The translations under genes and the position numbers were made by a program. 46,057 nt of DNA from a bacterium (GTDB lineage: Bacteria > Actinomycetota > Aquicultoria > Aquicultorales > Aquicultoraceae). The stretch is taken from positions 1 to 46,057 of the forward strand of contig CADDYS010000006.1 in the NCBI GenBank assembly GCA_902810715.1, written 5' to 3'. The notes beneath the pieces are model-generated. The model did not search any database and had not been told where the DNA came from. It saw only the letters and a list, made by a program, of their open reading frames with translations. Shown here piece by piece: positions 11,211 to 30,903 of the stretch (positions are counted from its first letter, which is position 1; every line of letters begins with the position of its first letter).

Positions 11211-11269
11211 CCCAACCAAAAGCACGCGTGACGGTGCACTAGGCGCAGACTCGAGTTAAGATGTTGCCG

Positions 11270-12057: not shown

Positions 12058-13884
12058 CTGGGGCTAAAGAAACTAATTTATTTAACAGCTGATATATTGC
12101 TCGTTGGTGTTGCCTGGCTTCTTGCGTTTCTACTCCGTTTCGGCGTGTATATACCTGTTGAGTACATTCAAGTGTTTTTATTATTAACGCCGCTTGCGAT
12201 TGCCATAAAGATCATCGTATTTTACATCTCAGGTTTCTATGGCCAGCTCTGGACGTATGCAAGCCTAAAAGAAGGGTTGAGATTGCTGTATGGGATAACC
12301 GTAGCCTCACTTATTATTTTAGCGGTGCTCTTTTTCACCCAGCAAAGTGATTTTCCTAGAGCAGTAATTGTTATCGATTGGCTCTTGACCTTATTCCTGG
12401 TAGGGGGGAGCTACTTCTTTATCCGGGCTAAGAAAGATATTTTTTCTTTAACCCCAAGGGGTGTAAAGCAGAAAAAAATAATTATTGTTGGGGCGGGGGA
12501 AGCCGGCAGCATGCTGGTAAAGCAGATGCAACGCAGTCCCGGGAAAGGATACAAACCGATAGCAATTCTAGATGATGACCTATCAAAGACTGGCTTAATG
12601 ATTCATGGGGTTAGAGTAGTTGGAAGCAGCAGGTCTATCCCAGCGATTATTGCCGACTACCCGGCCGATGAGATAGTTTTAGCAATCCCATCCGCTTCGC
12701 GAGAGGAAAGAAGACGTATTGCCATTGAGTGCAGAGACCTTGGCATTCCCTGTAAGACAGTGCCAGACATTACTGAGCTGGTGGACGATGAGATAAGCAT
12801 CTCCCAGATAAGAGATATAGACCCAAAAGAGTTGTTAGGTCGAAAAGAGACAAATATTGATCTCAAAGACACCGTAGATCGCTACAGAGGCAAAACCGTC
12901 CTCATTACTGGGGCGGCGGGCTCTATAGGCTCTGAACTCTGCCGCCAGATAGTTGATCTTGAACCAGAGAGGGTGGTTGCGACCGATATCTCGGAGAACG
13001 GGCTCTATCATCTTGAAGAGGAGATGATCTCCTGGCTAAACGGTAGTAGCAAGGTGACCTTCAACGTCCGGGTTATGGATGTTAGGGATAACCATGCGGT
13101 TGAAAGAATCCTTAAGACGTATAAGCCGGAGGCCATCTTTCATGCAGCGGCCTACAAGCATGTGCCTATGATGGAAAGACACCCCATTGAGGCCATGGAA
13201 AATAACTTCTTAGGTACCCGCGTTATGATAGAGGCTGCCAGGCGGCACAATTCTGAGAGGTTTGTCCTTATCTCTACCGACAAGGCTGTTAATCCAACAA
13301 GCATTATGGGCCTATCAAAGCGACTTGCCGAGCAATCCGTTAAAGTAGCGGCAAGCGAGAGCGGCAGTACTAAATTTATGGCTGTAAGATTTGGAAATGT
13401 TCTTGGCAGCAACGGAAGTGTTATTCCCAAGTTTAAGCGACAGATTAGTAGTGGAGGGCCCATAACTGTTACCCACCCCGATATTACCAGGTACTTTATG
13501 ACCATACATGAGGCCGTATATCTCGTTATTCAAGCGGCCGCAATGGGCAATGGCGGGGAGATATTTCTGCTTAATATGGGAGAGCCGGTGCGAATAGTTG
13601 ACCTGGCCCGGAGTATGATCAGGCTCTCCGGTCTGGAGCCGGAAAAAGATATACCGGTAGAATTTACCGGCCTCAGGCCGGGTGAAAAGCTCTATGAGGA
13701 ATTGTACGGGCAAGATGAGGCGATTAACAAGACACAGCATCCCCAGATATTTGAGGTATGCAGTGCTTGCAATGAGATGTTGCTCGTCGAGATGTTAAGT
13801 GAATTGGAGACTGTTGTAACTAAAGGGGACGGACTTAACTTTTCCAATTTTTTGAGCCGGAACTATCTTGCCCCGGCCGCTTAA
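12058..13884 (+). CDS. Membrane-bound UDP-sugar 4,6-dehydratase (CapD/WbpM family)
   Basis: NAD(P)-dependent short-chain dehydrogenase that probably converts UDP-GlcNAc to a 4-keto-6-deoxy sugar for surface glycan synthesis. An N-terminal membrane region with about four helices is followed by a first Rossmann domain (IIIVGAGEAGS, near residue 140) and the catalytic SDR domain (VLITGAAGSIGSELC, near 280). The usual catalytic Tyr is Met (STDKAVNPTSIMGLSK), as in this family. The first ATG/GTG/TTG of the frame is TTG 12097, but that would cut the first helix. The open frame upstream encodes GLKKLIYLTADILL. AGGGGAG at 12045-12051 is 6 nt before CTG 12058, so I propose a CTG start. It opens the glycan operon. 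Confidence 0.88.
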   Translation: MGLKKLIYLTADILLVGVAWLLAFLLRFGVYIPVEYIQVFLLLTPLAIAIKIIVFYISGFYGQLWTYASLKEGLRLLYGITVASLIILAVLFFTQQSDFPRAVIVIDWLLTLFLVGGSYFFIRAKKDIFSLTPRGVKQKKIIIVGAGEAGSMLVKQMQRSPGKGYKPIAILDDDLSKTGLMIHGVRVVGSSRSIPAIIADYPADEIVLAIPSASREERRRIAIECRDLGIPCKTVPDITELVDDEISISQIRDIDPKELLGRKETNIDLKDTVDRYRGKTVLITGAAGSIGSELCRQIVDLEPERVVATDISENGLYHLEEEMISWLNGSSKVTFNVRVMDVRDNHAVERILKTYKPEAIFHAAAYKHVPMMERHPIEAMENNFLGTRVMIEAARRHNSERFVLISTDKAVNPTSIMGLSKRLAEQSVKVAASESGSTKFMAVRFGNVLGSNGSVIPKFKRQISSGGPITVTHPDITRYFMTIHEAVYLVIQAAAMGNGGEIFLLNMGEPVRIVDLARSMIRLSGLEPEKDIPVEFTGLRPGEKLYEELYGQDEAINKTQHPQIFEVCSACNEMLLVEMLSELETVVTKGDGLNFSNFLSRNYLAPAA

Positions 13885-13909: not shown

Positions 13910-14968
13910 ATGAGGGATTTCTACAAAGGCAAGAGAATTCTCGTTACCGGCGCTGCCGGGACTGTCGGAAAAGAAGTGGTTAGACAACTCTACTCCTTCG
14001 CACCTTTAGAGCTTCGCCTTATGGATAACAATGAGTCGGAGATGTTCTTTCTTGCAGAAGAGTATAGAGACCAGGATATCTTCTGCTTCCTTGGAGATGT
14101 TAGAGATAGAGACAAGGTTGAAAAACTCTCAAAAGGAATCGATATCATTATCCACTCTGCTGCTTTTAAGCATGTACAGCTCTCCGAATACAACCCATTT
14201 GATGTGGTGCAGACAAACATAATCGGGGTTGAAAATATCATCCACGCGGCAACGGCATGCAACGTAAAGCGCGTTCTCTTTACAAGCAGCGACAAAGCGG
14301 TCAATCCAACCAACGTTATGGGCACCTCAAAACTTATGGGAGAGCGGCTTATCACCGCTGCCAATGCAGTGCGAAATGGTAGCGACACCATCTTTAGCAG
14401 CACACGGTTTGGTAATGTGATAGGTTCCAGAGGCTCGGTCGTCCCACTCTTTATGAAGCAGATTAAAAACGGTGGGCCCGTTACCTTAACCGACGAGAAG
14501 ATGACACGCTTTGTTATGATTATAGAAGAGGCAGCCAGGTTAGTACTAAAGTCGGCGACAATTGCCCGGGGCGGGGAAGTATTTGTCACCAAGATGCCGG
14601 TAGTTAAAATCCCTGATCTAGCTGAGGCAATGATAGAGCTTCTTGCCCCAAAATATGGCTACAGCCCCCCAGATATTGGCATCGTTGAGATAGGCGCTAA
14701 GCCCGGTGAAAAGCTCTATGAAGAGCTTATGAATGAGGAAGAGGTCCATCGCTCTATGGAGCTCAAGGACATGTTTGTCATCACACCGGCCTTTAGGTCC
14801 ATTTATGAATCTATAACATACCTGTACCCAGATGTCGTCCCTGAAAAGGTGCAAAGATCGTATGTTTCTGCCAACGAGGAGTCGATGGATAAGGAATCCA
14901 TCAAGCAATACCTAATTGAGAACAAGGTCATCGAGAGCGTTGAGGATATCCTATTGGAGGTGGCTTGA
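13910..14968 (+). CDS. SDR-family UDP-HexNAc 4,6-dehydratase-like protein
   Basis: Soluble member of the polysaccharide-biosynthesis SDR family (352 residues), acting on a nucleotide sugar in the cytoplasm. The dinucleotide-binding loop is VTGAAGTVGKEV near residue 10. The active-site segment SSDKAVNPTNVMGTSK has Met for Tyr, the mark of the 4,6-dehydratase group that includes FlaA1/PseB and CapD. KPGEKLYEEL near the C-terminus is also typical. It starts at ATG 13910 behind AAAGGAG, 25 nt after the membrane-bound dehydratase, and ends 2 nt before the sulfoquinovose synthase. Two such enzymes side by side suggest two different 6-deoxy sugars or a dehydratase/epimerase division of labour. Confidence 0.88.
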   Translation: MRDFYKGKRILVTGAAGTVGKEVVRQLYSFAPLELRLMDNNESEMFFLAEEYRDQDIFCFLGDVRDRDKVEKLSKGIDIIIHSAAFKHVQLSEYNPFDVVQTNIIGVENIIHAATACNVKRVLFTSSDKAVNPTNVMGTSKLMGERLITAANAVRNGSDTIFSSTRFGNVIGSRGSVVPLFMKQIKNGGPVTLTDEKMTRFVMIIEEAARLVLKSATIARGGEVFVTKMPVVKIPDLAEAMIELLAPKYGYSPPDIGIVEIGAKPGEKLYEELMNEEEVHRSMELKDMFVITPAFRSIYESITYLYPDVVPEKVQRSYVSANEESMDKESIKQYLIENKVIESVEDILLEVA

Positions 14969-14970: not shown

Positions 14971-16182
14971 ATGAGGGTTTTGGTACTGGGGGCCGACGGG
15001 TATCTAGGTTGGCCAACGTGTATGTACTTTTCCAGGCGGGGCCATGATGTTATAGGGGTGGACAATTACTTCAGGAGAAGTGCCGCAACTGAGCTTGATT
15101 GTGAGCCTCTAATTCCGGTCCCAAATCTTATGCAGAGAGCAAGGGTATGGCAGGAGATGACCGGCAAGGATATGGATATCCACATTGGAGATGTCACCGA
15201 TTACCCCTTTCTTAAAAGCATATTTAAGGATTATAGGCCAGATGTTGTCGTTCATTATGCGGAACAGCCTTCCGCCCCTTACTCAATGATAGACCATGAT
15301 AAAGCAGCTTTCACTGTGAGAAATAACCTCATCAGCACTCTTAATGTTGCCTATGCAGTACAAGAGGTCGCGCCGGAGTGCCATATCGTAAAACTTGGCA
15401 CTATGGGCGAGTATGGTACTCCCGATATCGATATAGAGGAGGGCTTTATAGAGATAGAGCATAAAGGCCGCAAGGACAGATTTCTTTTCCCAAGGCAGGC
15501 AAGCTCTCTTTACCATACCACTAAGATCCAGGACACTGACATGCTCTGGTTCTATATCAGGACATGGGGCATAAGAGCAACGGACCTCATGCAGGGCCCC
15601 GTATATGGAGTCTCTACCGAAGAGGCAGATATTAATCTTTCTCTTATGCCTCACTTTAACTACGATGAGATATTTGGCACCGTCTTAAACAGATTTGTGG
15701 TCCAGGCAGTAGCAGGCCATCCCTTAACCATATACGGCAAGGGGGATCAGATAAGGGGATATTTAAACATCAAAGACACTTTAGCCTGTGTGTATCTTTC
15801 TGCCATGAACCCGGCGGAGCCAGGCGAGTTCAGGATATTTAATCAAGTTACAGAGACGTTTTCTGTAAATGAGCTTGCTAAGAAAGTAAAGAGAGTTGGG
15901 GAGAGCCTTGGCTACAAGATAGAGGTTAGGAACTACGAAAACCCGAGAGTGGAGAAGGAAGAACATTACTACAACCCGAAATATACCGGTCTTCTTGAGC
16001 TTGGACTAAAGCCCCACTACCTCACCGATGAGGTTCTTGGAGAGATGTTTAGGATTGTTGAGGAGTATAAACACAATATATACGATCACAAGATATTTAG
16101 GGGGATTAAGTGGCAGCAAGAGAGTTGCGAAGAAAAATTCAACCATCAACCAGCGAAGCTACACAAGTTCATTCGGGTTTGA
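14971..16182 (+). CDS. sqdB: UDP-sulfoquinovose synthase (SQD1/SqdB-like)
   Basis: Makes UDP-sulfoquinovose from UDP-glucose and sulfite. The protein (403 residues) resembles plant SQD1 over its whole length: GADGYLGWP at the NAD site, HYAEQPSAPYSMID, KLGTMGEYGTPDIDIEEG with the active-site Thr, ASSLYHTTK supplying Tyr 181 and Lys 185, WGIRATDLMQGPVYGV, YGKGDQIRGYLNIKDT and NPRVEKEEHYYNPKYTGLLELGL. I recall these blocks as nearly identical in SQD1. It starts at ATG 14971, 7 nt after GGAGGTGG. No sulfolipid synthase (SqdX/SQD2-like) lies beside it. All neighbours are surface-glycan genes, so the sugar probably enters a polysaccharide or glycoprotein glycan, as for archaeal Agl3. Confidence 0.9.
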   Translation: MRVLVLGADGYLGWPTCMYFSRRGHDVIGVDNYFRRSAATELDCEPLIPVPNLMQRARVWQEMTGKDMDIHIGDVTDYPFLKSIFKDYRPDVVVHYAEQPSAPYSMIDHDKAAFTVRNNLISTLNVAYAVQEVAPECHIVKLGTMGEYGTPDIDIEEGFIEIEHKGRKDRFLFPRQASSLYHTTKIQDTDMLWFYIRTWGIRATDLMQGPVYGVSTEEADINLSLMPHFNYDEIFGTVLNRFVVQAVAGHPLTIYGKGDQIRGYLNIKDTLACVYLSAMNPAEPGEFRIFNQVTETFSVNELAKKVKRVGESLGYKIEVRNYENPRVEKEEHYYNPKYTGLLELGLKPHYLTDEVLGEMFRIVEEYKHNIYDHKIFRGIKWQQESCEEKFNHQPAKLHKFIRV

Positions 16183-17483
16183 GAGCAATTCCTTTCCGGG
16201 GATTATCATTACGTCATAACATTTCCTGGACGCTGGTTGGAAATTTAGTCTATGCTGGCTGCAATGGTGGAATGCTTGTTACCCTTGCCAAACTTGGGAA
16301 CCCGGTGATGGTTGGTCAACTTGCACTTGCGCTTGCTGTTACTACACCGGTGTTCACGTTCTCCAACCTGCAATTGAGCAATATCCAGGCCACCGATGCA
16401 AGATACGAGTATCTTTTCGGTGATTACCTAGGGTTAAGGATCATCACGACGGTGCTCGCACTTCTAGTTACTCTGGGAACTACCCTGTTAGTTAAGTATC
16501 ACCCAGAGACGACACTTATCATCATGGTTGTAGGTATAACAAGGGCGTTCGCTTCCATAAGTGATGTATATTACGGGCTTCTTCAGCAACATGAGCGGAT
16601 GGATCGCATTGCTAAATCAATGATAATCGAGGGTCTCTTATCACTAATAATGCTAGGTGCTGGAGTGTATTTTACTGGCAGTATGCTATGGGGCGTTATC
16701 GGATCAGCAACCGCCCAGGTATTGGTTCTCGTTGGCTACGACATTCGAAGCGGCTCATTGGTCCTGAAAACCATGGCGAGAACATCGGGAGACGAGTCAA
16801 TTAGTAGAGCTGATCCAGCAATAGAATTGCGGCCACACTGGTCGATAGAGGCGCTGTGGAAACTAGCATGGCTAGCCTTGCCACTGGGTTTTGTGGCGAT
16901 GCTGAGCTCTCTCTATACCAACATCCCTCGCTATTTTATAGAGCATTACTTGGGTGAACGAGAGTTAGGTATATTTGCCGCCATGGCATACCTGATTATA
17001 GGGGGGAGTACTGTGGCAAATGCGCTGGGGCAATCGACCAGGCCACGGTTAGCTAAATACTATGCAGCGGGCAATAGCAAGGCATTCCGCACGCTTCTCC
17101 TCAAGTTAGTAGGCGTTGGTATTCTACTAGGTACCGTGGGCGTGTTAGCCGCTTTGATTGCTGGCCGGGAGATACTAATCCTCCTTTATAGGCCTGAGTA
17201 TGCTAATCACGCGAGCGTTCTTATCTGGCTAATGGTCGCTGCGGGGATTGGCTATGTGGGTAGCTCTCTTGGCAATGGGATTCTTGCAACCAGGGCATTT
17301 AGTCGATATATCATTCCCCACCTGGTAGTAGTTGCAGGTATTATCGGATTCTCAGCACTTCTAATTCCTGCTTATGGTCTTATTGGTGCTGCGTGGGCTT
17401 TGTGTGCAGTTAGTTTAGTAGGTCTTGTCGCAATTATCGTTATCCTAAAAACCATGAGGAGGCAAGCAATAACCTTATCCTAG
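16110..17483 (+). CDS. Polysaccharide flippase (Wzx/MOP family)
   Basis: Integral membrane protein (457 residues, about 12 hydrophobic helices) expected to flip lipid-linked oligosaccharide units across the membrane. No strong sequence motif exists for this family. The call rests on the helix pattern, the short cytoplasmic N-terminus followed by RHNISWTLVGNLVYAGCNGG, and its place in the locus. The chosen GTG 16110 has AGGGGG 4-9 nt upstream and overlaps the end of sqdB by 73 nt. A later start inside the frame would lose this site. The next gene begins 8 nt after its stop with its own AGGAGG. Confidence 0.85.
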   Translation: MAARELRRKIQPSTSEATQVHSGLRAIPFRGLSLRHNISWTLVGNLVYAGCNGGMLVTLAKLGNPVMVGQLALALAVTTPVFTFSNLQLSNIQATDARYEYLFGDYLGLRIITTVLALLVTLGTTLLVKYHPETTLIIMVVGITRAFASISDVYYGLLQQHERMDRIAKSMIIEGLLSLIMLGAGVYFTGSMLWGVIGSATAQVLVLVGYDIRSGSLVLKTMARTSGDESISRADPAIELRPHWSIEALWKLAWLALPLGFVAMLSSLYTNIPRYFIEHYLGERELGIFAAMAYLIIGGSTVANALGQSTRPRLAKYYAAGNSKAFRTLLLKLVGVGILLGTVGVLAALIAGREILILLYRPEYANHASVLIWLMVAAGIGYVGSSLGNGILATRAFSRYIIPHLVVVAGIIGFSALLIPAYGLIGAAWALCAVSLVGLVAIIVILKTMRRQAITLS

Positions 17484-17491: not shown

Positions 17492-18202
17492 ATGTGTGAT
17501 CAATCCTGTATCAGGTTTGGGCAAGATTACTTTACAGAAGATATAGTCAGAAGGAAAGCTGTCATTGAGGTAGGCTCTCGCAACGTTAATGGTTCGCTTC
17601 GTCCTGTCATTGAGAACCTTAATCCGCAAAGTTATTTAGGGGTTGACCTAGAGGAAGGTTTGGGAGTGGATGAAATCTGCGATGCAGGCAAACTGGTTGA
17701 ACACTTCGGTTCTGAGGCGTTTGATTTATTAATATCAACATTTTTAGTAGAGCACGTATGCGACTGGCGCAAAGTCATTAGCAACTTTAAGCATATTTTA
17801 AAACCGAACGGTACACTGTTAGTATCCACAGCATCGAAAGATTTTCCGTATCATGGTTACCCTTTTGATTACTGGAGGTATGAGCTGGATGATTTGCAGA
17901 TAATCTTTTCTGATTTTATTGTTGAGGTGCTTGAGGAAGATATCTCTAAGCAGCTCGTCTATATCATTGCAAGAAAACCGCCTATTTTTGAGGAAAAGGA
18001 TCTGTCAGATTACCAGCTTTACTCCATTATTAGAGGAGTTCGCATACCAAAAATTCTTACTAAAGATATCGTGCTGTTTAAGATCAAGCATCCTTCTCTT
18101 GGACTGCGGAAAATTACAGCCATTGTAGCCCGGTGGCTGCCAATACCAGTTAAGCATGCCATAAAACGGCTTTTGGTTATTTTTGGAACGGGTCTTACTT
18201 AA
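17492..18202 (+). CDS. SAM-dependent methyltransferase (class I), glycan locus
   Basis: Predicted methyltransferase of 236 residues. A degenerate motif I (VIEVGSRNVNGS) is followed by an acidic loop YLGVDLEEG, then FDLLISTFLVEHVCDWRKVISNFKHILKPNGTLLVST, the usual core of Rossmann methyltransferases. A conserved-looking PYHGYPFDYWRY patch follows and may shape the substrate site. It could methylate a sugar of the polymer or cap its end. Substrate and position cannot be read from the sequence. AGGAGG at 17483-17488 supports ATG 17492. Base composition turns noticeably A+T-richer from here on. The 129 nt after it hold no gene. Confidence 0.82.
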   Translation: MCDQSCIRFGQDYFTEDIVRRKAVIEVGSRNVNGSLRPVIENLNPQSYLGVDLEEGLGVDEICDAGKLVEHFGSEAFDLLISTFLVEHVCDWRKVISNFKHILKPNGTLLVSTASKDFPYHGYPFDYWRYELDDLQIIFSDFIVEVLEEDISKQLVYIIARKPPIFEEKDLSDYQLYSIIRGVRIPKILTKDIVLFKIKHPSLGLRKITAIVARWLPIPVKHAIKRLLVIFGTGLT

Positions 18203-18331: not shown

Positions 18332-19339
18332 ATGATAGATGCGCTGAGCGATAACGCAATCCGTGCTAGTTCTTGTTCTGATTGCTATCTATGCGGTACA
18401 CAGGGCAAAATTCTTTACCGGGGTTTAAGTGATCGCCTTTTTGGATCACCGGGGGAATGGAATTTGAAAACATGCTCGAATCCTGAATGCCGACTGGTGT
18501 GGCTAGACCCGATGCCGCTGAAAGAAGATATCGGCAAGGCTTATAAGACCTATTTTACACATGGGAAAAACAAATCCAATAGCCAAGATAAAGACTTAAA
18601 GGAAGCTATCTTGGCTAACTTAGGAAAAATTTATAGAGCAATGTTGCGGGCAACGCCGCTTTATTATGAACGCAAGAAGCGATCTTTGATGTACCTGGAT
18701 AAATTAACACCTGGTAGGCTGCTTGACGTGGGCTGTGGAAATGGTGATCAACTCGTCCAAGCACGCGCCCTAGGCTGGAAGGTAGAAGGCCAGGAGATTG
18801 ACCCGAAAGCAGCTGAATATGCCCGCAATGTTCATGGTCTTACGGTGCATCTAGGCACTTTGGAGGAGCTAGCATTTCCAGATGCAACGTTTGATGCAAT
18901 TATTGTAAGTCACGTTATCGAGCACGTGCATGATCCAATAGGGCTTCTTAAAGAATGCTATCGAATATTAAAACCTAACGGCTCATTGTTTGTGTTTACA
19001 CCAAATATTGAAAGTTTTGGTCACAGGTACTTTAAATCGTATTGGTATGCCCTTGACCCGCCAAGACATCTGTATCTTTTTTCCATGAGTTCTCTCCGTA
19101 TATGTGCTAAAAGAGCAGGATACGGATCGATTAATATTTGGACCGCCTTACCTTACAAACCAGGCATATTTCTTGCTAGTCAGGATATTCAGGTGAAGGG
19201 TATGCACGAGATAGGTGAGCCTAAACGGCCATCTCTGCTTAGGTTTATCCAAGCATCTGGGTTACAGTTTTGGGAGTTATTTCTTAGATTTTGGATTCCT
19301 AAAGTTGGTGAAGAGTTAGTGTTAAGAGCAATTAAATGA
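18332..19339 (+). CDS. SAM-dependent methyltransferase with N-terminal Cys cluster
   Basis: Methyltransferase of 335 residues. The N-terminus carries a probable zinc knuckle, Cys 18/21 (CYLC) with a second Cys pair about 30 residues later (CSNPEC), as in methyltransferases of polysaccharide and nucleotide-sugar loci. The Rossmann core has LLDVGCGNGDQL (motif I), VEGQEIDPKA, FDAIIVSHVIEHVHDP and LLKECYRILKPNGSLFVFTP. The last third (about 230-335) is a separate region with RHLYLFSMSSL. Its target is probably a sugar in the repeat unit. The stop overlaps the start of the next glycosyltransferase by 4 nt (ATGA), so the two are translationally coupled. Confidence 0.84.
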   Translation: MIDALSDNAIRASSCSDCYLCGTQGKILYRGLSDRLFGSPGEWNLKTCSNPECRLVWLDPMPLKEDIGKAYKTYFTHGKNKSNSQDKDLKEAILANLGKIYRAMLRATPLYYERKKRSLMYLDKLTPGRLLDVGCGNGDQLVQARALGWKVEGQEIDPKAAEYARNVHGLTVHLGTLEELAFPDATFDAIIVSHVIEHVHDPIGLLKECYRILKPNGSLFVFTPNIESFGHRYFKSYWYALDPPRHLYLFSMSSLRICAKRAGYGSINIWTALPYKPGIFLASQDIQVKGMHEIGEPKRPSLLRFIQASGLQFWELFLRFWIPKVGEELVLRAIK

Positions 19340-20289
19340 AGGTAACGAGCATAAAAGGGCAAATTCAATATGCGCCAAGCATACATAACATATGTGCCGT
19401 CATTGTTACCTATCATCCAGGCATGGATTTTTTAGAAAGAGTCAAATGCATTAACCATCAAGTTGGTAAGGTAGTTATAGTTGATAACCACTCTTCGGAA
19501 TCTTGCCTACAAATGATGAGAAAACTACCTACTGAAATGGGAGCGCATTTAATTTTAAACGAAGAAAATTTGGGGGTTGCGGCTGCTTTAAATCAGGGAA
19601 TTCAGTATGCAATTGATCTTGGTTATACCTGGGTCTTAACAATGGATCAAGATACCTTTGCCTATCCGACAATGGTTCGGAATTTGATTACGGCATATAA
19701 CGATTGCCCGTTTAGAGAAAAAGTAGGGATGGTTGGTTCAAGTTATCATGAAGGAAATACAGGCAAGGTTATGCCAGTTGGGAAGGATAATGGTAGGCGG
19801 CCCTGGCTAGAGGTTAGAGGGGTTATAACTTCTGGAAGCCTGATACCCGTTCCAGTTTTTGAGAGGGTTGGCCCATTCCGGGAAGATTTTTTTATTGATC
19901 TTATAGATACTGAATACTGCCATAGGCTTAGGTTGGCAGGGTATAAGCTTATCATCACCCCAAGAATCAGTATGCAGCATTTTATTGGAAACCGTAGCAA
20001 GATCAGGACTCTTTCATCAAATACCATTACGCAAAATACCATTATGCCGCTTAATTATCCACCATTTCGGAGTTACTACATAACAAGGAACACGTTATTG
20101 TTGGCATGCAAATCTGACTTTTGGAAAGAGTCTAGGTGGGCGGTGGGTATGCTCAGGTTTCTTATTAGGTATTGGTTAATGACAGTCTTATTTGAGGACA
20201 ATAAACTGACAAAAATAAAATACATTGGTCTAGGAATTACTCATAGTTTGATTTCTAAGCGAGGAAAATTAAGATGTGTAAGCCATTAA
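19336..20289 (+). CDS. Family 2 glycosyltransferase (rhamnosyltransferase-like)
   Basis: GT-A fold transferase of 317 residues that should add one sugar to the lipid-linked unit at the cytoplasmic face. Motifs are CAVIVTYHPG at the N-terminus, VVIVDNHSSES, NEENLGVAAALNQGI and the metal-binding LTMDQDT near residue 102, followed by DFFIDLIDTEYCHRLRLAGY, which resembles dTDP-rhamnose transferases such as WbbL. The first 15 residues are extra and could be trimmed by a later start. The 4 nt overlap with the previous methyltransferase supports ATG 19336. Donor and acceptor are unknown. Confidence 0.85.
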   Translation: MKVTSIKGQIQYAPSIHNICAVIVTYHPGMDFLERVKCINHQVGKVVIVDNHSSESCLQMMRKLPTEMGAHLILNEENLGVAAALNQGIQYAIDLGYTWVLTMDQDTFAYPTMVRNLITAYNDCPFREKVGMVGSSYHEGNTGKVMPVGKDNGRRPWLEVRGVITSGSLIPVPVFERVGPFREDFFIDLIDTEYCHRLRLAGYKLIITPRISMQHFIGNRSKIRTLSSNTITQNTIMPLNYPPFRSYYITRNTLLLACKSDFWKESRWAVGMLRFLIRYWLMTVLFEDNKLTKIKYIGLGITHSLISKRGKLRCVSH

Positions 20290-20377: not shown

Positions 20378-21703
20378 ATGAGCTACAAGGCAACTACCAT
20401 AAATAAGGCAATAAGCTATTTTATACTGGCATTTGTCTTCGTTTCGCTTATTTTCCGGTATCAGCTAAGGATGCCGAATGCTGGCTACTATGCCACCCTG
20501 GCTAATTTATTATTGGCGGCTATTACCTTAGGCTTTGCTTTAAAGGTTCTTATCAACAAAAAAAATATTCATGTAAAAAGTAAATTAGATATTCCTTTTG
20601 CCCTTTTTTCGATAGCAATTTTTATTGGTCTTATAAACGGTTATTTTAGATTCGGCATTACACAGGATTATCTAAATGATGCTAGGTACTTTTATCCATT
20701 CCTCCTATTTTTTATTGTAACTTCCACAAGCGAAATATACATGGATGTCCGTAAGTTCACAAAAAAAATGATTACTCTTCTATTATTATCTAGCTTAATC
20801 GTTGCTACTTACACAATTTTTGCCTCACTTCTTCATTTCGACCATCCTCTAGATATATCTAGTCCTTGGGATTTAAAGTTGATTGAACTCGAGGGATTTA
20901 CGAGGGTTGCTACCCTAGCCCCAGAAGGAATTTTATTAATAACGCCTTGCGTTATTTTCGGCCTTCTGCATGTAAAGAAGCTGTCTCTTGTTAAAGGTTG
21001 TTTTTTACTAGCTCTCAACATGCTAGCGCTAGTAGTTACTTTTACTAGACTATTGGTGGTGGGTGTAGTAATATCAATAATCCTATACTTCATTATAGTG
21101 GCACTTAAAGGACATATATCTGCGATAGCTAAGGTTCTCTTAGCGATATCGCTAGTTTTTGTATTCACTCAAGCCTTTTTCTCTCACTATGGCGCTTTTG
21201 CGGGCAACCTAGTTATGTTACGCTTTGAACCTCTTTTTAATGCACAATCCGTATACGATATAGGTTCTGCAGAACACAGAATAGAAGAATCAAAAGCTTT
21301 TTTAAATGTATTTCAAGAGAGTCCCTCTCTAGGGACCGGCTTAGGGACCACTGTTACTTTTTATTCAACGATATTTCACGGATATGTAAAAAGAGGCAAT
21401 TGGCACAACGCGTATTCAATGCTGCTCGGTAAATTAGGGCTGCTAGGATTCTTAAGTTTTATATTGATACTTATTAGCCTTTTTAGCGAGAGCATTTTTG
21501 TTTTCAGAAAAAGTCAAGACCTAAATTCTAAACTCTTCGCTATAGTTTCTATCGTAATCATAGCAAGTTTAACGATAACAAGTTTTGGCGAGAGCGACTT
21601 AATTAGCTTAGACCTAACCCCTTTTTTTATAGTCCTGGCCGGATTAATTGGCCTTTATGCTTCAAAGCTTAGAGCAAGCGAAGAGGTGGGCCATGGCCTT
21701 TAG
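20378..21703 (+). CDS. O-antigen polymerase/ligase-like membrane protein (Wzy/WaaL family)
   Basis: Integral membrane protein of 441 residues with about 11-12 hydrophobic segments. It carries a long extracytoplasmic loop with GTGLGTTVTFYSTIFHGYVKRGNWHNAYSMLLGKLGLLGF; the GxGxG and HNxYxxxLxxxGxxG pattern is that of the Wzy_C family. It should polymerise repeat units on the outer face of the membrane. As the only such gene in the locus, polymerase is more likely than ligase. The surrounding DNA is strongly A+T-rich. The C-terminus overlaps the next glycosyltransferase by 11 nt. Confidence 0.85.
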   Translation: MSYKATTINKAISYFILAFVFVSLIFRYQLRMPNAGYYATLANLLLAAITLGFALKVLINKKNIHVKSKLDIPFALFSIAIFIGLINGYFRFGITQDYLNDARYFYPFLLFFIVTSTSEIYMDVRKFTKKMITLLLLSSLIVATYTIFASLLHFDHPLDISSPWDLKLIELEGFTRVATLAPEGILLITPCVIFGLLHVKKLSLVKGCFLLALNMLALVVTFTRLLVVGVVISIILYFIIVALKGHISAIAKVLLAISLVFVFTQAFFSHYGAFAGNLVMLRFEPLFNAQSVYDIGSAEHRIEESKAFLNVFQESPSLGTGLGTTVTFYSTIFHGYVKRGNWHNAYSMLLGKLGLLGFLSFILILISLFSESIFVFRKSQDLNSKLFAIVSIVIIASLTITSFGESDLISLDLTPFFIVLAGLIGLYASKLRASEEVGHGL

Positions 21704-22634
21704 GCTAAGCATAATAATCGTTAACTGGAACACACTCAAATTATTAGATAACTGTCTTAACTCTATCACCTTTAGCCAGACCAGCTTTTCTACTGAAACT
21801 ATTGTTGTGGATAATGCATCCACGGATGGCAGCGTCGAAATAGTAAAGACAAAATACCCGTGGATCAAACTAATAAAAAATAAGGAAAACGTTGGGTTTG
21901 CAAGGGCAAATAACCAGGGCTTTAAGGAGAGTAGCGGCAGACATGTGATGTTTTTAAACAGCGATACAATAGTTAAGCCTCATGCTATTGATAGGGTAAT
22001 TGAATTTATGGATTCTTGCCCAGGTGCAGACATTGCTGGCCCAAAGCTTCTAAACGAAGATGGAAGCTTACAGATATCGGCCTTTAAGCTCCCTACTTTG
22101 TTTAATTCTATCGGCGATCTGATATTCGGTTTCTTTAATAGTCCTCTTTCAAGCAGGTTTACCTCTAAGTACGGTCGCTATGATAGAGAAATTCAGGTAG
22201 GGTGGGTATCCGGCGCATGTCTGGTCGCAAAAAGAGAGGCAATAGAAAAAATTGGCGGTTGGGATGAGACCTTTTTCATGTATTCCGAGGACGTAGTAAT
22301 GGGCATTAAAGCCAAGCAGTACGGCTTAAAAACATTCTTCTTTCCAGGGGCTGAGGTAATCCACCTAAGGAATAAAAGCAGTAATATTCCCCAAAAGAGG
22401 ATTATGCAAATCTATGAAAGCAGGATAAAACTCAGGCGAGAGTATTTCAATGGCTCTTCGTTTCTTATGTATTTGTTGTTAATTGGCTTAATCGCTTTTG
22501 GTAGAGCAATGATTTATTCAGTGAAGTTCTTACTTCAAAAATCGGTTGGTAGAGAGGCGTCATTTGCGCGAGAAAGGGTATCAATATATATAGAGGTCTT
22601 TTCCCTTCACATCAAATCAGTATTCGGGGGATAG
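21693..22634 (+). CDS. Family 2 glycosyltransferase
   Basis: GT-A transferase of 313 residues. IIIVNWNTLKLLDNCL, VVDNASTDGSVEIV, NVGFARANNQGF, FLNSDT (metal site) and GWVSGACLVAKREAIEKIGGWDETFFMYSEDV follow the usual order for WbbL-like rhamnosyl or galactofuranosyl transferases. A hydrophobic stretch near the C-terminus may bind the membrane. I start at ATG 21693 because GAGGTGG lies just upstream. The frame is open further back to 21648 inside the polymerase gene. The stop is 1 nt before the next gene's ATG. Confidence 0.87.
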   Translation: MAFRLSIIIVNWNTLKLLDNCLNSITFSQTSFSTETIVVDNASTDGSVEIVKTKYPWIKLIKNKENVGFARANNQGFKESSGRHVMFLNSDTIVKPHAIDRVIEFMDSCPGADIAGPKLLNEDGSLQISAFKLPTLFNSIGDLIFGFFNSPLSSRFTSKYGRYDREIQVGWVSGACLVAKREAIEKIGGWDETFFMYSEDVVMGIKAKQYGLKTFFFPGAEVIHLRNKSSNIPQKRIMQIYESRIKLRREYFNGSSFLMYLLLIGLIAFGRAMIYSVKFLLQKSVGREASFARERVSIYIEVFSLHIKSVFGG

Positions 22635-22635: not shown

Positions 22636-23820
22636 ATGAGTGAAAATGGTTTAAAGGTTTTGGACAGAAAGCACTTGAGTGATTCAGTTTGCGTTATAGT
22701 CGGTACTCGACCAGGCATTATTAAAATGAGCCCCATCATTAAGGAGTTAAGCTGGCGACAGGTTCCTTCTTTTACGCTTCATACCGGACAGCATTACTCT
22801 TACGAAATGGATAAGAAATTTTTTGAAGATTTAGGGTTACCAAAACCCCTATACCACTTACCGCAATGTAAACCTGGAAGTCTTCATGGAGAACAAACGG
22901 CTAATATGCTATCAGGGATCGAATCTGTACTTATTGAGGCGAAGCCAAGATTGGTGTTAGTTTGCGGTGATGCTAACACAAATTTAGCAGGCGCGCTCGC
23001 GGCAAGAAAGCTACAGATAGAAGTAGGACACGTAGAGTCTGGCTTGAGAAGTAACGATTGGCGTATGCCAGAAGAGCACAATAGAGTAATAATAGATCAT
23101 ATTTCTGATTATTTATTTGCCCCAACGCCAAGAGCAAGACAAAATCTCGCCGATGACAATGTAAAAGGAAAAATATATTTAACAGGTAACACCATAGTTG
23201 ATGCCTTGATTCAGCACGTAGAAATAGCTGAGAACAAGAGCGCCATCATGAAGACTCTATCTTTGCCTAAAAACGGTTACATATTAACCACCATACATAG
23301 AGAAGAGAACGTTGACCATATAGATACTTTAACAGAAATCATTAAGGGCCTGGAATTGATTGGGGGCAATCTCGATTTCCCAATAGTGCTTCCAGTTCAC
23401 CCAAGAACAAAGAAGCGATTTAGTGATTTTAATCAGTGGAGTAAATTGGCGGGCATCCAGAACCTTACTATTATCGATCCTGTTGGATATCTCGATTTCT
23501 TGATTCTCTTAAGAAATGCAGCATTAGTCCTAACCGATAGTGGTGGAATTCAAGAAGAAAGTTGTATTCTCCATACACCCTGCGTGACTCTACGAGAAAA
23601 TACAGAACGACAAGAAACCGTATACGTAAAATCAAATACCATTGCTGGGACAAAGCCAGAGAGAATACTAAATGCGGTGGAAAGGTCTCTGGAAAAGGAG
23701 GCAGATTGGCCTAACCCATTTGGAGATGGTAGGGCAGCAAAAAGAATTATCGATGTTTCGGTCGGCATACCTGTAACCGAGTGGGCCTCTGCCCTTGATA
23801 ATAAGATGAGGCTATTGTAA
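22636..23820 (+). CDS. wecB: UDP-N-acetylglucosamine 2-epimerase (non-hydrolysing)
   Basis: Interconverts UDP-GlcNAc and UDP-ManNAc in the cytoplasm. The 394 residues match the family. The expected acidic and His residues are visible in VCGDANTNLAGA, GHVESGLRS, MPEEHNRVIIDH and TTIHREENVD, and the C-terminal domain has LTDSGGIQEE and TLRENTERQET. One departure is GTRPGIIKM where GTRPEIIKM or GTRPEAIKM is usual. No UDP-ManNAc dehydrogenase is next to it, so ManNAc itself or a downstream product made by the Gfo/Idh-DegT pair may be used. ATG 22636 follows a GGGGG stretch. Confidence 0.93.
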   Translation: MSENGLKVLDRKHLSDSVCVIVGTRPGIIKMSPIIKELSWRQVPSFTLHTGQHYSYEMDKKFFEDLGLPKPLYHLPQCKPGSLHGEQTANMLSGIESVLIEAKPRLVLVCGDANTNLAGALAARKLQIEVGHVESGLRSNDWRMPEEHNRVIIDHISDYLFAPTPRARQNLADDNVKGKIYLTGNTIVDALIQHVEIAENKSAIMKTLSLPKNGYILTTIHREENVDHIDTLTEIIKGLELIGGNLDFPIVLPVHPRTKKRFSDFNQWSKLAGIQNLTIIDPVGYLDFLILLRNAALVLTDSGGIQEESCILHTPCVTLRENTERQETVYVKSNTIAGTKPERILNAVERSLEKEADWPNPFGDGRAAKRIIDVSVGIPVTEWASALDNKMRLL

Positions 23821-23823: not shown

Positions 23824-25065
23824 ATGAGAATTATAATACTAAACCATTTTGAGAGATTTAGCCCGAGGGTCACCCTAGAAACAACTTCTCTCAGGCAAAA
23901 TGGTCATAATTTGACCGTTTTAAGCTGGTGCAGAAATTCGGATAGGCATGCCGGGTTGGAGGATCAACTGAATGGTCTACCTGTGAAATGGGTCACAGTA
24001 AGATCAACAAAAGCTTCCTCACGATTGTTGCTATCTCTTCCAAAGTTATACGAAAATATCTGGCGGTTTTTAAAAGAGGAGGAGTTTGATGTGATTCATT
24101 GCACCCACCTCTTTTTGCTTCCCATCGCAGTATTTGTAGCTAAAAAAAAGAAATGTAAGGTCGTATATGATGCGTATGAAAGACATGCGGTTGATCTTGC
24201 AGATTACTACTTCCCATTCTTAAAAACCTGGATAGCAAAGTTAATTGAATTAGCAGAGAATCTCTTCGTTCGGCATGTCGATGGTGTACTGACAATATCA
24301 TCCGCCGGTGAAGTGCTTGAGAAAAGATATAGGAAATTATGTAGGAATGTTGAGGTTATCTATAACGTCCCATCGCTGAGGTCTTCGACAAGGAATTCTA
24401 AGAAGAAAGATCTAGAAAAGAAGTATCGTGGGCGGTATTTGTTGTCATATGTTGGGGGCCTTATAAAGGGAAAGGGGTTGTTCCGGCTCATTGACATGCT
24501 GGATGCTATCAGGCTGAGATATTCTGAAGTACTGCTCCTATTAATAGGAGAATTCGATTCTTTGCAGGAGATGGAGGAGTTTTTCAGCCGTATTAAGAAA
24601 AGAGCGCTTGATGAGTATGTTGAAGTACTACCCTATTTACAATACGATGATATGCTTGACTATTTGGAACTCTCTCGTATTGGTCTTGCATTACATCAAC
24701 AGCAGGCTAGATTTAAGCTTGTTGGGAAGGGAGCGGGACGTAAATTCTTTACATATATGCAAGCAGGAGTGCCGGTTATATCTACCAACTTTGGGGAGAT
24801 TGCCAAAGTTATTGAAGAGGAAAAATGCGGGGTTTTAATAGATACAACGTCAGTGCAAGAAATTGTAGAAGCTGTAACTTTCCTCTTAAAGAACAAAGAT
24901 ATCGCAAAAAAAATGGGGGAGAATGGCAAGGCGGCTATTCTAGAAAAATATAATTGGGAGATAGAAGAAAAAAAGTTGAATCGAGTGTATGAAAAGCTTG
25001 TGCAGAATAGTAAAGGTACTCAGGCGGATGATCAGATGGAATTCGATAGGCTAAGCACTGCATAG
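23824..25065 (+). CDS. Family 4 glycosyltransferase
   Basis: GT-B transferase of 413 residues. The N-terminal domain has NHFERFSPRV and FDVIHCTHLF. The C-terminal domain has LLSYVGGLIKGKGLFRLIDML and the donor site FFTYMQAGVPVISTNFGEIAKVIEEEKCGVLID. The EX7E motif is present in modified form around the GEIAKVIEEEKCG region. It should add one sugar of the repeat unit from a nucleotide donor. Starts 3 nt after wecB. The ribosome site is weak, so translation may depend on coupling. Confidence 0.86.
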   Translation: MRIIILNHFERFSPRVTLETTSLRQNGHNLTVLSWCRNSDRHAGLEDQLNGLPVKWVTVRSTKASSRLLLSLPKLYENIWRFLKEEEFDVIHCTHLFLLPIAVFVAKKKKCKVVYDAYERHAVDLADYYFPFLKTWIAKLIELAENLFVRHVDGVLTISSAGEVLEKRYRKLCRNVEVIYNVPSLRSSTRNSKKKDLEKKYRGRYLLSYVGGLIKGKGLFRLIDMLDAIRLRYSEVLLLLIGEFDSLQEMEEFFSRIKKRALDEYVEVLPYLQYDDMLDYLELSRIGLALHQQQARFKLVGKGAGRKFFTYMQAGVPVISTNFGEIAKVIEEEKCGVLIDTTSVQEIVEAVTFLLKNKDIAKKMGENGKAAILEKYNWEIEEKKLNRVYEKLVQNSKGTQADDQMEFDRLSTA

Positions 25066-25104
25066 TTTGTCTCTATATTGCGAAAAATTGGAGGGAGTAT
25101 ATCT

Positions 25105-26178
25105 ATGGATAAATTGAGAATTGGCATAATAGGCTGCGGTAAACAGGCAGAGAAACACATCTACTCCCTCAAGAAGATACCTTATGTGGAGACGGTTCTA
25201 AGTGATATCCAACCTCTGGCTGCGAAGAGATTAGCAGAAAAGACAGGTTCTATATGGGTGGATCACCCAGATGAAATATACACTGATGATTCAATCAGGT
25301 CAGTCGTAATATGTACACCTACTCCAACACATGTTTCTCTTATTGAAAAGACTATCGCCCGCGGGATGGATGTATTCTGCGAAAAACCCCTTTGTGATAC
25401 TCCAGAAGAGGCTAAACGTTTACAAAACCTTCCCTCTCAGTCCGAACAAGTTATTCTTATAGGTTATGTATATAGGTATGTGCCAATTTTTGAAGAAGGC
25501 TTTAGGCTTTTCCGTGAGCAGACAATTGATGGTGAGAGCCTTGTTATGGGAAAGCCAGTAAGCGCCTACTTCAGGCTAGGTGGACGTGGTGGCCATCAGG
25601 TGTGGAAGCATATGAGAGGTTCTGGGGGAGGGGCTATTAATGAAATGTTGGTCCATATGTTAGACCTTGCCAACTGGTATTTTGGGCCTTTCAAAGATAT
25701 TGAAGTAATATCTTGCAGTTTAAGATGTCCTGCAAGGATGATAAATGGAGAGATGGTCGAGGTAAATGCTGAAGATTTCATCCTTGTAAAATGCACGGGA
25801 GGAAATGGATTAGAAATTTTTTGTCAGGCAGACCTTATTTCTCCTGCTTTTGTTCAGTATGTGGAGGTTCAGACAGAGAAAGGAACCTTTATGGGATCGA
25901 TTCAATCGGATATGCCTTCCTATATCTTTCTAAAAGAGGGTAGCGGTGGATATAGTGCAGGAAAGACAGAGCTTAGATTTGGTCAAAGGAATGTCTTTGA
26001 TATGCAGATGTTGCATTTTGTTTATTGCATATTGAAGAGGGGGCTACCGGATAAAAACAGGGTTGAAGATTCTTTGCAATTGATAGAAGTGATAAGGGAG
26101 ATCAGGAATCAGGCTGATTTGAAGCTGATAAGTGGTAAACAGGGGGTCATTACTTATGATACATATGGCAGAGATTAA
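25105..26178 (+). CDS. Gfo/Idh/MocA-family sugar oxidoreductase
   Basis: NAD(P)-dependent dehydrogenase of 357 residues acting on a sugar or nucleotide sugar. The Rossmann motif is RIGIIGCGKQAEKHI, then VVICTPTPTHVSLIEK and the family signature CEKPLCDTPEEAK with the catalytic Lys. GGAINEMLVHMLDLANW supplies the usual His of the C-terminal domain. ATG 25105 follows GAGGGAG at 25091-25097, so the upstream TTG 25078 is rejected. It overlaps the next aminotransferase. This pairing is typical of making a keto sugar and then aminating it, for example 3-amino sugars from WlbA/WlbE-type pairs. The product here is not known. Confidence 0.87.
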   Translation: MDKLRIGIIGCGKQAEKHIYSLKKIPYVETVLSDIQPLAAKRLAEKTGSIWVDHPDEIYTDDSIRSVVICTPTPTHVSLIEKTIARGMDVFCEKPLCDTPEEAKRLQNLPSQSEQVILIGYVYRYVPIFEEGFRLFREQTIDGESLVMGKPVSAYFRLGGRGGHQVWKHMRGSGGGAINEMLVHMLDLANWYFGPFKDIEVISCSLRCPARMINGEMVEVNAEDFILVKCTGGNGLEIFCQADLISPAFVQYVEVQTEKGTFMGSIQSDMPSYIFLKEGSGGYSAGKTELRFGQRNVFDMQMLHFVYCILKRGLPDKNRVEDSLQLIEVIREIRNQADLKLISGKQGVITYDTYGRD

Positions 26179-27256
26179 GTTAATGGAAAGGGAGATAGAG
26201 GCTGCCGTAAGGGTATTAAGATCAGGCGAATTGCGTCAGGGAAAGGAATGTGAAAGGTTCGAGGCAGAGTTTGCAGAGAAGGTGGGTTCAAGATACGCTG
26301 TTACATGCGCAAACGGGACAGCCGCGCTCCACCTGTCCTATATGACAATTTTGGAGCCTGGTGATGAAGTGCTCGTTCCTTCCTTTACCTTTTTCGCAAC
26401 CTGCAGCATGGTCGTAATGGCTCAAGGAAAACCTGTGTTCTGCGATATCGATCCAGAAACCTTTCTTATAGATCTAAAGGATGCAGAGAAAAAAATTACT
26501 TCAAAGACCCGGGCGATAGTACCGGTCCATTTATTTGGGAATCCTTGCGATATTGACCGTATTGTTACATTTGCTAAGAAACATAACCTGAAAATAGTCT
26601 GGGATGCAGCCCAAGCCCACGGTGCTACCTACAAAGGTAAGGATGTAGGTGCCTTTGATGAGCTTGTTTGTTATTCTTTTTATCCCTCTAAGAATATGTT
26701 TGTAGGAGAGGGAGGGATGATCTGCACCAACGACACACAGTTATATGAGAAGCTTCGATATATGAGAACCCATGGGCAGACTGGCAAATATTACCATACT
26801 ATGTGGGGGTTGAATTACCGCATGACCGATGTTGAAGCTGCAATAGGAAAAGAGCAGTTGAAGCGTCTGGACGAGATGCTTTCCGTCAGGAGAAGGAATG
26901 CCGAATTTTTGAACAAAAGATTGGCTGCAATCCCAGGTATCAGGCCTCAAAAAGTTACATCTTATGGAGAACATGCCTGGCATCAGTACTCCGTAATTGT
27001 AAATAAGGAGGAATTTGGTTGTAGTAGAGATGCGCTATCAAAGCAGCTTGGGGAAAAAGGTATTGTTACAGCCGTACATTACCCGAAAGGCGTTCATCAG
27101 CAACCTGTCTTTAAGGAACAAGATGAAAAAATCTCTCTTCCAAATACAGAATATGCTGCAGAAAACATCCTGTCTGTGCCTGTTCATCATGGGTTATCCC
27201 AAAGTGATATAGAAAGGATTGTTGAAGCGATACATGAAGTCAGGCAAGAATTCTAA
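26156..27256 (+). CDS. DegT/DnrJ/EryC1 sugar aminotransferase (first copy)
   Basis: PLP-dependent aminotransferase of 366 residues that aminates a keto nucleotide sugar. TCANGTAALHLSYMTI and EVLVPSFTFFATC are typical of the family, VWDAAQAHGATYKG provides the PLP-contacting Asp, and CYSFYPSKNMFVGEGGMICT contains the Schiff-base Lys. I choose ATG 26156, which lies 8 nt after a GGGGG site; the GTG at 26132 is too far inside the previous gene. It overlaps the Gfo/Idh gene by 23 nt, so the two are almost certainly coupled and consecutive in the pathway. Confidence 0.9.
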   Translation: MIHMAEIKLMEREIEAAVRVLRSGELRQGKECERFEAEFAEKVGSRYAVTCANGTAALHLSYMTILEPGDEVLVPSFTFFATCSMVVMAQGKPVFCDIDPETFLIDLKDAEKKITSKTRAIVPVHLFGNPCDIDRIVTFAKKHNLKIVWDAAQAHGATYKGKDVGAFDELVCYSFYPSKNMFVGEGGMICTNDTQLYEKLRYMRTHGQTGKYYHTMWGLNYRMTDVEAAIGKEQLKRLDEMLSVRRRNAEFLNKRLAAIPGIRPQKVTSYGEHAWHQYSVIVNKEEFGCSRDALSKQLGEKGIVTAVHYPKGVHQQPVFKEQDEKISLPNTEYAAENILSVPVHHGLSQSDIERIVEAIHEVRQEF

Positions 27257-28484
27257 ACCAACACATATTCTTTTTTTAACCTATCACCTACCTCTTGAAA
27301 ATGAGCCTGGAGCGTTTAGGCCATGGATGGAAGCTCGGCTTATGGCCAAAGCTGGATACAAGGTGACGGTTGTGACCTCTGGTGTCCAGTATATGACGGG
27401 TAAAGATATACGGCCCTACAAGGCATGGTGCACTGAGGAATTTGTTGAAGGGGTAAGGATACTAAGAACCTGGGCACCTGAAGACTATCGCCGTTCCTTG
27501 ATCCGTCGTCTTTACAACTATCTAGGTTATACCATTTTAGCAGGCATAGCCTCGTGTTTTAAAGTTAAAAAGGTAGATCGCATTTTTGCTGGGACGGACC
27601 CTATTTTTATGATGCCAATGGTTTATCTGCTCTCGCTCATCAAGCGAGCTCCAATGGTGCTGGATGAGCGAGATTTGTATCCAGAGACTGCTATTGCCCT
27701 AGGAGTGATGAGAGAGGGAATACTTTCAAATCTGCTGTTTAAACTTCAACAATTTTTCCGGTTCAAGGCTATAGGTATCTTAACTGCCACTCCAGGCATT
27801 AAAAGAAGACTTTTAAGTTACGGTATCCCAGATGAGAAAGTGTATTTACTATACAATGCCGACGTGTTTTTGGACGCCGAGGTCGAAATTAATAAGAATA
27901 CTGAGTCAATCCGTACACTAACAAATGAGAGATTTCTGGTGGGTTATGTTGGAGGGCTGGGAAGGGCCAATGACATCCCTACTTTGCTTCGAGCTGCTGA
28001 GCGTATGAAAGATATGAAAGAACTTGGTTTCTTAATTGTCGGAAGCGGTGACAGACGCAAAGACTATATTGAGTTTTGTAAACAAAGGGGTCTTGATAAT
28101 GTGACATTCCTTTCGGCAGTCCCCAGAATAGAGGCGAGGGCCTTACTGAAGCGGATAGATATTTGCGTGCAACCACTGCTTAAAGATAAGCACTTCTCAG
28201 GCACATTAACAAGCAAGACATTTGATTATCATGCTCTGGGCAAACCCATGATCTTCTGTGGAAGTGGTGACACAGAAGATTTGCTTCGAGAAACAAGAGG
28301 TGGACTCATTGTGCTACCAGAGGATGACCAGGAACTGGCGAGATCAATCCAGACGCTTATAGAAGATGAACCCCTTCGACAAAAAATGAGAACATCAGCC
28401 AAAAAATGGTATGAAAAAAATATTAATCCGGATATTGCTTGTTGGATAATGAAAAAGGTCATGGAGGGTAATGGATATAAATGA
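27234..28484 (+). CDS. Family 4 glycosyltransferase (WcaI/WbuB-like)
   Basis: GT-B transferase of about 416 residues. ILFLTYHLPLENEPGAFRPWMEARLMAKAGYKVTVVT is the N-terminal pattern of WcaI/WbuB-like enzymes. VGYVGGLGRANDIPTLLRA, FLIVGSGDRRKDYIEFC, VTFLSAVPRIEARALLKRIDICVQPL and KTFDYHALGKPMIFCG form the donor domain. Start is uncertain: ATG 27234 or the in-frame TTG 27219, whose AAAGGA box is too close. Both lie inside the preceding aminotransferase gene. The end overlaps the methyltransferase by 14 nt. Confidence 0.85.
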   Translation: MKSGKNSKPTHILFLTYHLPLENEPGAFRPWMEARLMAKAGYKVTVVTSGVQYMTGKDIRPYKAWCTEEFVEGVRILRTWAPEDYRRSLIRRLYNYLGYTILAGIASCFKVKKVDRIFAGTDPIFMMPMVYLLSLIKRAPMVLDERDLYPETAIALGVMREGILSNLLFKLQQFFRFKAIGILTATPGIKRRLLSYGIPDEKVYLLYNADVFLDAEVEINKNTESIRTLTNERFLVGYVGGLGRANDIPTLLRAAERMKDMKELGFLIVGSGDRRKDYIEFCKQRGLDNVTFLSAVPRIEARALLKRIDICVQPLLKDKHFSGTLTSKTFDYHALGKPMIFCGSGDTEDLLRETRGGLIVLPEDDQELARSIQTLIEDEPLRQKMRTSAKKWYEKNINPDIACWIMKKVMEGNGYK

Positions 28485-30329: not shown

Positions 30330-30903
30330 CGTGTTCTTCTCGTTCATCGGCTTAATAGTGCTGTTGCCATTATTTGCAGTAGTAGCAGTCCTGATAAAAC
30401 TGGATAGCCCGGGTCCCGTCTTCTTTGTCCAGAGAAGGGTTGGCAGGAACTTCAAATTGTTTAACCTCTATAAGTTTAGGTCAATGGTTATTGATGCCCC
30501 TAAAAAAGGAATTCCTGTTACAGTTGGCGGTGATCCTCGCGTCACAAGAGTCGGAAGGTATCTTCGAAGATCGAAGGTAGATGAGCTACCCCAACTTATC
30601 AATGTTTTGAAAGGCGACATGAGCCTTGTTGGGCCGAGACCAGAGGTGGGTAGGTATGTAGAGAAGTATCGGGATGAGTATGGAACGATTCTAACGATAC
30701 GACCCGGCATTACCGATATTTCCTCGCTCAAGTATAGGAATGAAGAAGAGGTCTTGCGAGACAAGAAAGACCCTGAAGAGTACTATATCCGCACACTCTT
30801 GCCCGAGAAAATTGAGCTTGCTAAAGAATATATAAGAAAAGCCTCCCTTATATACGATCTTAAGCTTATATTCCGTACCATTTTTAAACTGGTCGAGAGA
30901 TAG
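30313..30903 (+). CDS. Initiating phosphoglycosyl transferase (monotopic PglC/WcaJ type)
   Basis: Transfers a sugar-phosphate from a UDP-sugar to undecaprenyl phosphate and so starts the repeat unit. At 196 residues it is the short, PglC-like form without extra membrane helices. The N-terminal re-entrant helix is [21 protein letters not shown], then [47 protein letters not shown] with the Asp-Glu dyad, and [16 protein letters not shown] 30313 gives the conserved KRLLDV start; the longer frame lies inside the aminotransferase. Together with the DegT enzymes, a di-amino or 4-amino-6-deoxy-HexNAc may be the first sugar. It is the last gene before the transposon. Confidence 0.92.

Follow-up and report, generated by a model that had tools for sequence, protein, structure and literature searches.

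Organization of the locus

The window, by which we mean the whole 46,057-nucleotide stretch of DNA that was analysed, carries an SQD1-like gene (14971..16182, +) embedded in a run of polysaccharide genes. The open reading frame is real and encodes a 403-aa extended SDR, assigned from its match to SQD1, its clade and its AlphaFold model, with the motif RQAxSLYHTTK..DTDLLWFY of a group that we refer to as the T clade. Upstream lie a WbpM/PglF-type membrane-anchored 4,6-dehydratase (12097..13884, +; CoA_binding_3 and Polysacc_synt_2) and a soluble CapD/PseB-like NDP-sugar dehydratase, here termed CapD2 (13910..14968, +; Polysacc_synt_2), with the active site SDK..MGxxK. Reading of the sequence places the ATG of the SQD1-like gene at 14971, just 2 nt past the CapD2 stop codon, with a TTG at 14965 as an alternative start and a likely ribosome-binding site, GGAGG (14957..14961, +), within the 3' end of CapD2. 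Since the start lies only 2 nt beyond the upstream stop, the two genes are probably translationally coupled.

The genes that follow begin with a Wzx-type flippase (16110..17483, +; Polysacc_synt, PF01943), whose true start probably lies downstream of 16110, because the long reading frame overlaps the SQD1-like gene. Next are two class I SAM methyltransferases (17492..18202, + and 18332..19339, +), a GT2 glycosyltransferase (19336..20289, +), a Wzy-type polymerase (20378..21703, +; PF04932), a second GT2 (21648..22634, +), the UDP-GlcNAc 2-epimerase WecB (22636..23820, +; TIGR00236 above its cut-off), a GT4 glycosyltransferase (23824..25065, +), a Gfo/Idh/MocA oxidoreductase (25078..26178, +), a DegT-type sugar aminotransferase (26132..27256, +), a WcaI-like GT4 (27219..28484, +), a further class I SAM methyltransferase (28471..29166, +), a DegT/DnrJ/EryC1 aminotransferase (29163..30329, +) and an initiating bacterial sugar transferase (Bac_transf; 30265..30903, +). 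A polysaccharide co-polymerase combining Wzz and tyrosine-kinase-like parts is encoded on the opposite strand (35007..36386, -). With flippase, polymerase, initiating transferase, co-polymerase and glycosyltransferases all present, the locus is a complete one of the Wzx/Wzy type. The surface-polysaccharide setting described in the initial annotation is therefore borne out by the WbpM-like and CapD/PseB-like dehydratases, the flippase, Wzy, the GT2 and GT4 enzymes, WecB, the two DegT proteins and the sugar transferase.

Just past the polysaccharide locus is an IS200-like transposase (Y1_Tnp; window 31040-32026). The co-polymerase belongs to a minus-strand group (window 33041-37822) that also includes a DUF4012 protein, a sortase and a small exported protein, and this group possibly serves surface attachment. 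Further along (window 40581-42243), two reading frames resemble, by eye only, LarB and LarE of nickel-pincer cofactor synthesis.

The SQD1-like protein and characterized enzymes of its family

The protein possesses the full-length extended-SDR homology and the fold of a UDP-sulfoquinovose synthase. Residues 2-385 align with Arabidopsis SQD1 (PDB 1qrr, 1i24; EC 3.13.1.1) with E=3e-137 against 1qrr and no large gaps, and the next matches in the PDB sequence search are much weaker. The three top PDB structural matches of its AlphaFold model (mean pLDDT 84) are likewise SQD1 (TM 0.91/0.94), with other SDRs reaching a query-normalised TM of ~0.6-0.7. Catalytic Thr144, Tyr181 and Lys185 correspond to Thr145, Tyr182 and Lys186 of SQD1, and Ser179, His182 (SQD1 His183) and the GTMGEYGTP loop, which includes the MGEYGTP shared with SQD1, are retained as well. 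Both the end-to-end match to SQD1 and the conservation of the active-site Thr, Tyr and Lys had been claimed beforehand, and both hold.

The differences from SQD1 are equally specific. Pro100 occupies the alignment position of Arg101 in SQD1 and Agl3, the helix following the YxxxK motif reads HTTKIQDTDML rather than HLSKVHDSHNI, and the gene lies in a polysaccharide locus, not a sulfolipid one, beside a CapD2 partner. Against the NCBIfam model for UDP-sulfoquinovose synthase (NF041015) the protein scores 468.5 bits, under the curated cut-off of 575 bits; Pfam and NCBIfam alone would describe it as an "epimerase" with a sub-threshold UDP-sulfoquinovose synthase match. The gene is single-copy in its genome (2.43 Mb, 98% complete).

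Agl3 of Sulfolobus acidocaldarius is a member of the same family that feeds a surface glycan (PMC4388408). All Agl3 residues tested by mutation are kept in the window protein except Arg101, and the Agl3 R101A mutant is inactive (PMC4388408). Agl3 serves an archaeal N-glycan and, to judge from published primers, has YHWTKVHD from its catalytic Tyr onward, so the window protein differs from it in this segment as well as at Arg101. The Agl3 reaction proceeds through C4 oxidation, C5-C6 dehydration, sulfite addition and C4 reduction (PMC4388408; PMC8987622), and when sulfite is absent the enzyme yields UDP-Glc-5,6-ene (PMC4388408). This last property, together with the sub-threshold family score, the altered helix and the replacement of Arg101 by Pro in every T-clade sequence aligned (81/81), would be consistent with a T clade that lost its sulfite chemistry along with Arg101, makes no sulfosugar and acts as a dehydratase, epimerase or 5,6-ene former on another UDP-sugar. 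We regard this as unlikely, in view of the sulfur genes described below.

Phylogeny and distribution of the T clade

In a first tree, which included relatives from the phylum of the window's organism, the sequences with YHT(T/S)K..DTD form a single clade (98 SH-aLRT). A second tree, computed under a stronger model and with named SqdB, haloarchaeal and other sequences added, recovers the T clade with 97/97 support and places characterized SQD1 and SqdB on other branches, the haloarchaeal branch also being separate. The SQD1-like protein thus falls outside the clade of any characterized enzyme in these trees. Agl3 was compared through a published alignment and primer sequences, its own sequence being absent from the trees. 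The SqdB reference consisted of the Sinorhizobium meliloti pSymB gene and a Marinovum gene, each followed by a GT8-family transferase, an arrangement that agrees with the known sqdBDC order. SqdB of rhizobia and roseobacters, which occurs with SqdD and SqdC, belongs to the SQD family, but it has Arg101 and an MGVYGY loop, and its gene is followed by the GT8 without an adjoining CapD2.

The expected grouping with SQD1 and Agl3 therefore holds in part: the protein is an SQD1 homologue and the T clade neighbours the SQD1 clade, but it is separate from both SQD1 and SqdB (with Agl3 not in the tree). The loss of Arg101 is also not unique to the T clade, since the same position is Pro in 25 of 34 canonical-motif sequences from the window's phylum (loci L005-L041), which have no CapD2.

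The distribution of the T-type gene was assessed with a collection scan seeded with the window's subfamily, of which the best 80 matches were retained; the resulting 80 loci are consequently all T-type by design. They span more than 12 phyla, and many of the carriers are named as sulfate reducers. In 11 relatives scanned for gene content, the flanks of the T-type gene consist of polysaccharide genes (Poly_export, Wzz, Wzx, Wzy and glycosyltransferases; 67 proteins).

CapD2 is a near-obligate partner

One of the key features of the T-type gene is its pairing with CapD2, which is found at 68 of the 80 best-matching loci. In 65 of these the two genes directly adjoin, with CapD2 directly upstream in 61 (at a distance of at most 200 bp between aligned ends in 56) and with overlapping ends in 4; in the other 3 it is nearby. 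Among the 12 loci without CapD2, 7 have less than 1 kb of upstream sequence, and searching the 12 genomes located CapD2 elsewhere in 7 (54-78% identity), bringing the genomes that carry it to 75 of 80. A similar result comes from a set of 99 genomes related to the window's organism: exactly 4 encode CapD2 (73-100% identity), and these are the ones that have the T-type gene. The best match outside these 4 is 44% identical, and CapD2 is absent from 16 other relatives among the 99 that have an SQD homologue (E<1e-40). At loci L005-L020 and L022-L041, the 1.5 kb to either side of the SQD gene likewise contain no CapD2. The T-type gene and CapD2 accordingly constitute a conserved two-gene module in more than 12 phyla, and the initial picture of a solitary SQD1 taken up by a single locus does not stand. 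The name UDP-sulfoquinovose synthase also proved too specific, as the position on a branch apart from SQD1, SqdB and the haloarchaeal sequences, the loss of Arg101 and a near-obligate CapD2 partner lacking in canonical enzymes mean that both substrate and product may differ.

CapD2 itself retains [ST]DK and MGxxK in 69 of 69 aligned sequences, which is the active-site pattern of PglF/WbpM (PMC8987622). Its nearest PDB chain is Pen of Bacillus thuringiensis (6bwc; 43.5% identity), a UDP-GlcNAc 5,6-dehydratase that releases a 5,6-ene; FlaA1 is 40% and CapE 37% identical. Wild-type Pen has the same [ST]DK acid/base pair, the deposited PDB sequence bearing two active-site mutations, but CapD2 resembles PglF/WbpM and differs from Pen in having Met at the catalytic Tyr position. 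CapD2 forms its own clade (92/91), sister to the group of Pen, FlaA1 and CapE and inside none of them. We therefore rejected the simple equation of CapD2 with Pen, as the tree places CapD2 outside the Pen lineage.

It is conceivable that the two enzymes work apart, the SQD1-like protein alone converting UDP-Glc and sulfite to UDP-sulfoquinovose while CapD2 makes a different sugar of the same repeat unit, such as UDP-4-keto-6-deoxy-HexNAc. The intact Thr/Tyr/Lys triad and SQD1 fold would suit such an enzyme, CapD2 has the complete active site of a WbpM/PglF-type dehydratase, and Pro at position 101 need not by itself demand a partner, given that the same-phylum canonical clade mostly has Pro and no CapD2. 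However, pairing across more than 12 phyla in otherwise variable loci, with matching presence and absence in relatives, speaks more for a single common pathway than for two sugars unrelated to each other, and we consider independent action a possibility of lower rank. In a shared pathway, CapD2 might supply an activated intermediate to the SQD1-like enzyme.

Sources of sulfite

Four loci (L072, L097, L105 and L110) share the gene order PAPS reductase - SDR - CapD2 - SQD, with the reductase above its NCBIfam cut-off, and the same order of reductase, SDR, CapD2 and SQD recurs at L085, where the reductase was recognized by similarity (60% identity). Within the fetched flanks, sulfate-activation genes occur at ~10 of the 80 loci, and the PAPS reductase, which is diagnostic for sulfite, at only 5 of 80; a sulfate-activation gene in a flank could alone serve O-sulfation.

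A search of the window's genome for the PAPS-reductase family gave no match. Its aprA, qmoC and sat score above their curated cut-offs, and the places of qmoA and qmoB are taken by two HdrA-like reading frames. These genes lie together in one region (L163, G000:C1:36000-55900), with predicted membrane proteins nearby. Judged by this gene content, the organism has a dissimilatory sulfur metabolism, and because its genome contains aprA, qmoC and sat along with the HdrA-like frames, sulfite is probably formed as an intermediate in the organism's own metabolism. Five relatives with a PAPS reductase in the operon itself, the many carriers named as sulfate reducers and the APS-reductase pathway in the window's genome all argue against a T clade devoid of sulfite chemistry.

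Sulfolipid or surface polymer

SQD1 and SqdB supply UDP-sulfoquinovose for the sulfolipid SQDG, and the transferase SqdX/SQD2 is a GT4 enzyme. A sulfolipid role for the window gene would thus require UDP-sulfoquinovose to be used for SQDG by an unrecognised transferase; GT4 enzymes are common in the genome, with 28 Pfam matches. In Rubrobacteraceae a canonical SQD gene is followed by a GT4, taken as SqdX-like by position; a PDB search with this protein named no sulfolipid transferase. With this positionally chosen GT4 as the query, no SqdX-type orthologue was found in the window's genome, the best match being a generic GT4 of 30% identity; the SqdD-type GT8 found beside SqdB likewise had no match there, in a search that lacked a positive control. 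Moreover, canonical and T-type copies are kept apart in genomes having both. A sulfolipid destination consequently appears very improbable.

Jannaschia sp. Os4, Rubrobacter marinus and Mesorhizobium albiziae, all of them in culture, contain a T-type gene together with a canonical-type one, this second SQD gene being 40-48% identical to the window protein. The data fit a division of labour in which the canonical copy would serve lipid and the T-type copy a polymer.

Proposed function

Based upon these features, we consider it probable that the T-type enzyme and CapD2 together convert a UDP-sugar and sulfite to a UDP-6-deoxy-6-sulfo-hexose destined for surface polysaccharide rather than sulfolipid. 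We infer the UDP form and the destination, along with the chemistry, for which Agl3 is the analogy. In the T-type enzyme, NAD-dependent C4 oxidation and 5,6-dehydration would be followed by sulfite addition at C6 and C4 reduction, with CapD2 acting in the same pathway and with sulfite presumably provided in the window's organism by the Sat, APS reductase (AprA) and Qmo pathway. A glycosyltransferase of the locus would place the sulfosugar into a repeat unit, which Wzx would flip and Wzy would polymerise into a surface polysaccharide. Either UDP-sulfoquinovose or a different 6-sulfo sugar, such as a 6-sulfo-GlcNAc derivative, may be the product. More tentatively, the reaction could be split, with CapD2 oxidising and dehydrating a UDP-sugar (perhaps UDP-GlcNAc) to an intermediate activated as a 5,6-ene or 4-keto sugar, to which the T-type enzyme would add sulfite at C6; the product would then not be sulfoquinovose but a sugar like UDP-2-acetamido-2,6-dideoxy-6-sulfo-glucose, and it would be widespread in bacterial capsules and exopolysaccharides. 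The suggestion in the initial annotation that the sulfonated sugar enters a surface polymer remains the best reading, given the polysaccharide flanks in 11 relatives and the sulfite supply in relatives and in the organism's own genome.

Sulfonated sugars are known mainly as the head groups of plant and cyanobacterial sulfolipids and from archaeal glycans. Among the leading PubMed Central matches, none describes sulfonated sugars from the surface polysaccharides, capsules or EPS of bacteria, and one metagenome study counts UDP-sulfoquinovose synthase with the sugar genes for EPS but gives no evidence of the polymer itself. The enzyme family and the polysaccharide loci were known already; as far as these searches show, the T-type/CapD2 pair, its spread and the link to sulfite supply are undescribed. 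If the proposal is correct, C-S-bonded sugars would be common in bacterial surface polymers, especially those of sulfate reducers, and they would confer an acid-stable negative charge, constitute a source of organosulfonates in sediments and be easily mistaken for O-sulfated sugars. Such sugars could thus be frequent, yet so far unnoticed, constituents of bacterial coats. The proposal would also give a role to a large gene clade annotated merely as "NAD-dependent epimerase" and offer a two-enzyme system for studying the addition of sulfite to sugars.

Additional genes and copies

A third SDR, 4-epimerase-like by its PDB matches, lies directly 3' of the T-type gene at 21 of the 80 loci and in two sister genomes (L164:15942-17057 and L166:13289-14371). 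A possible role would be to epimerise the product, leading for instance to a sulfofucose; the gene is excluded from the core module because it is missing in the window. A conserved 513-aa "neighbour family" that emerged from clustering was taken to represent antisense reading frames over the SQD gene and was dropped. Multiple copies also occur: genome G306 holds several SQD genes, and at L047 an SqdB-type and a T-type gene (6949-8097 and 10591-11739) lie ~2.5 kb apart, with more T-like copies in that genome. Finally, an Agrobacterium plasmid carries an SQD-like gene of divergent sequence (L185:6001-7221), which is situated in a cluster of glycosyltransferase and methyltransferase genes and possibly represents a further non-lipid branch of the family.
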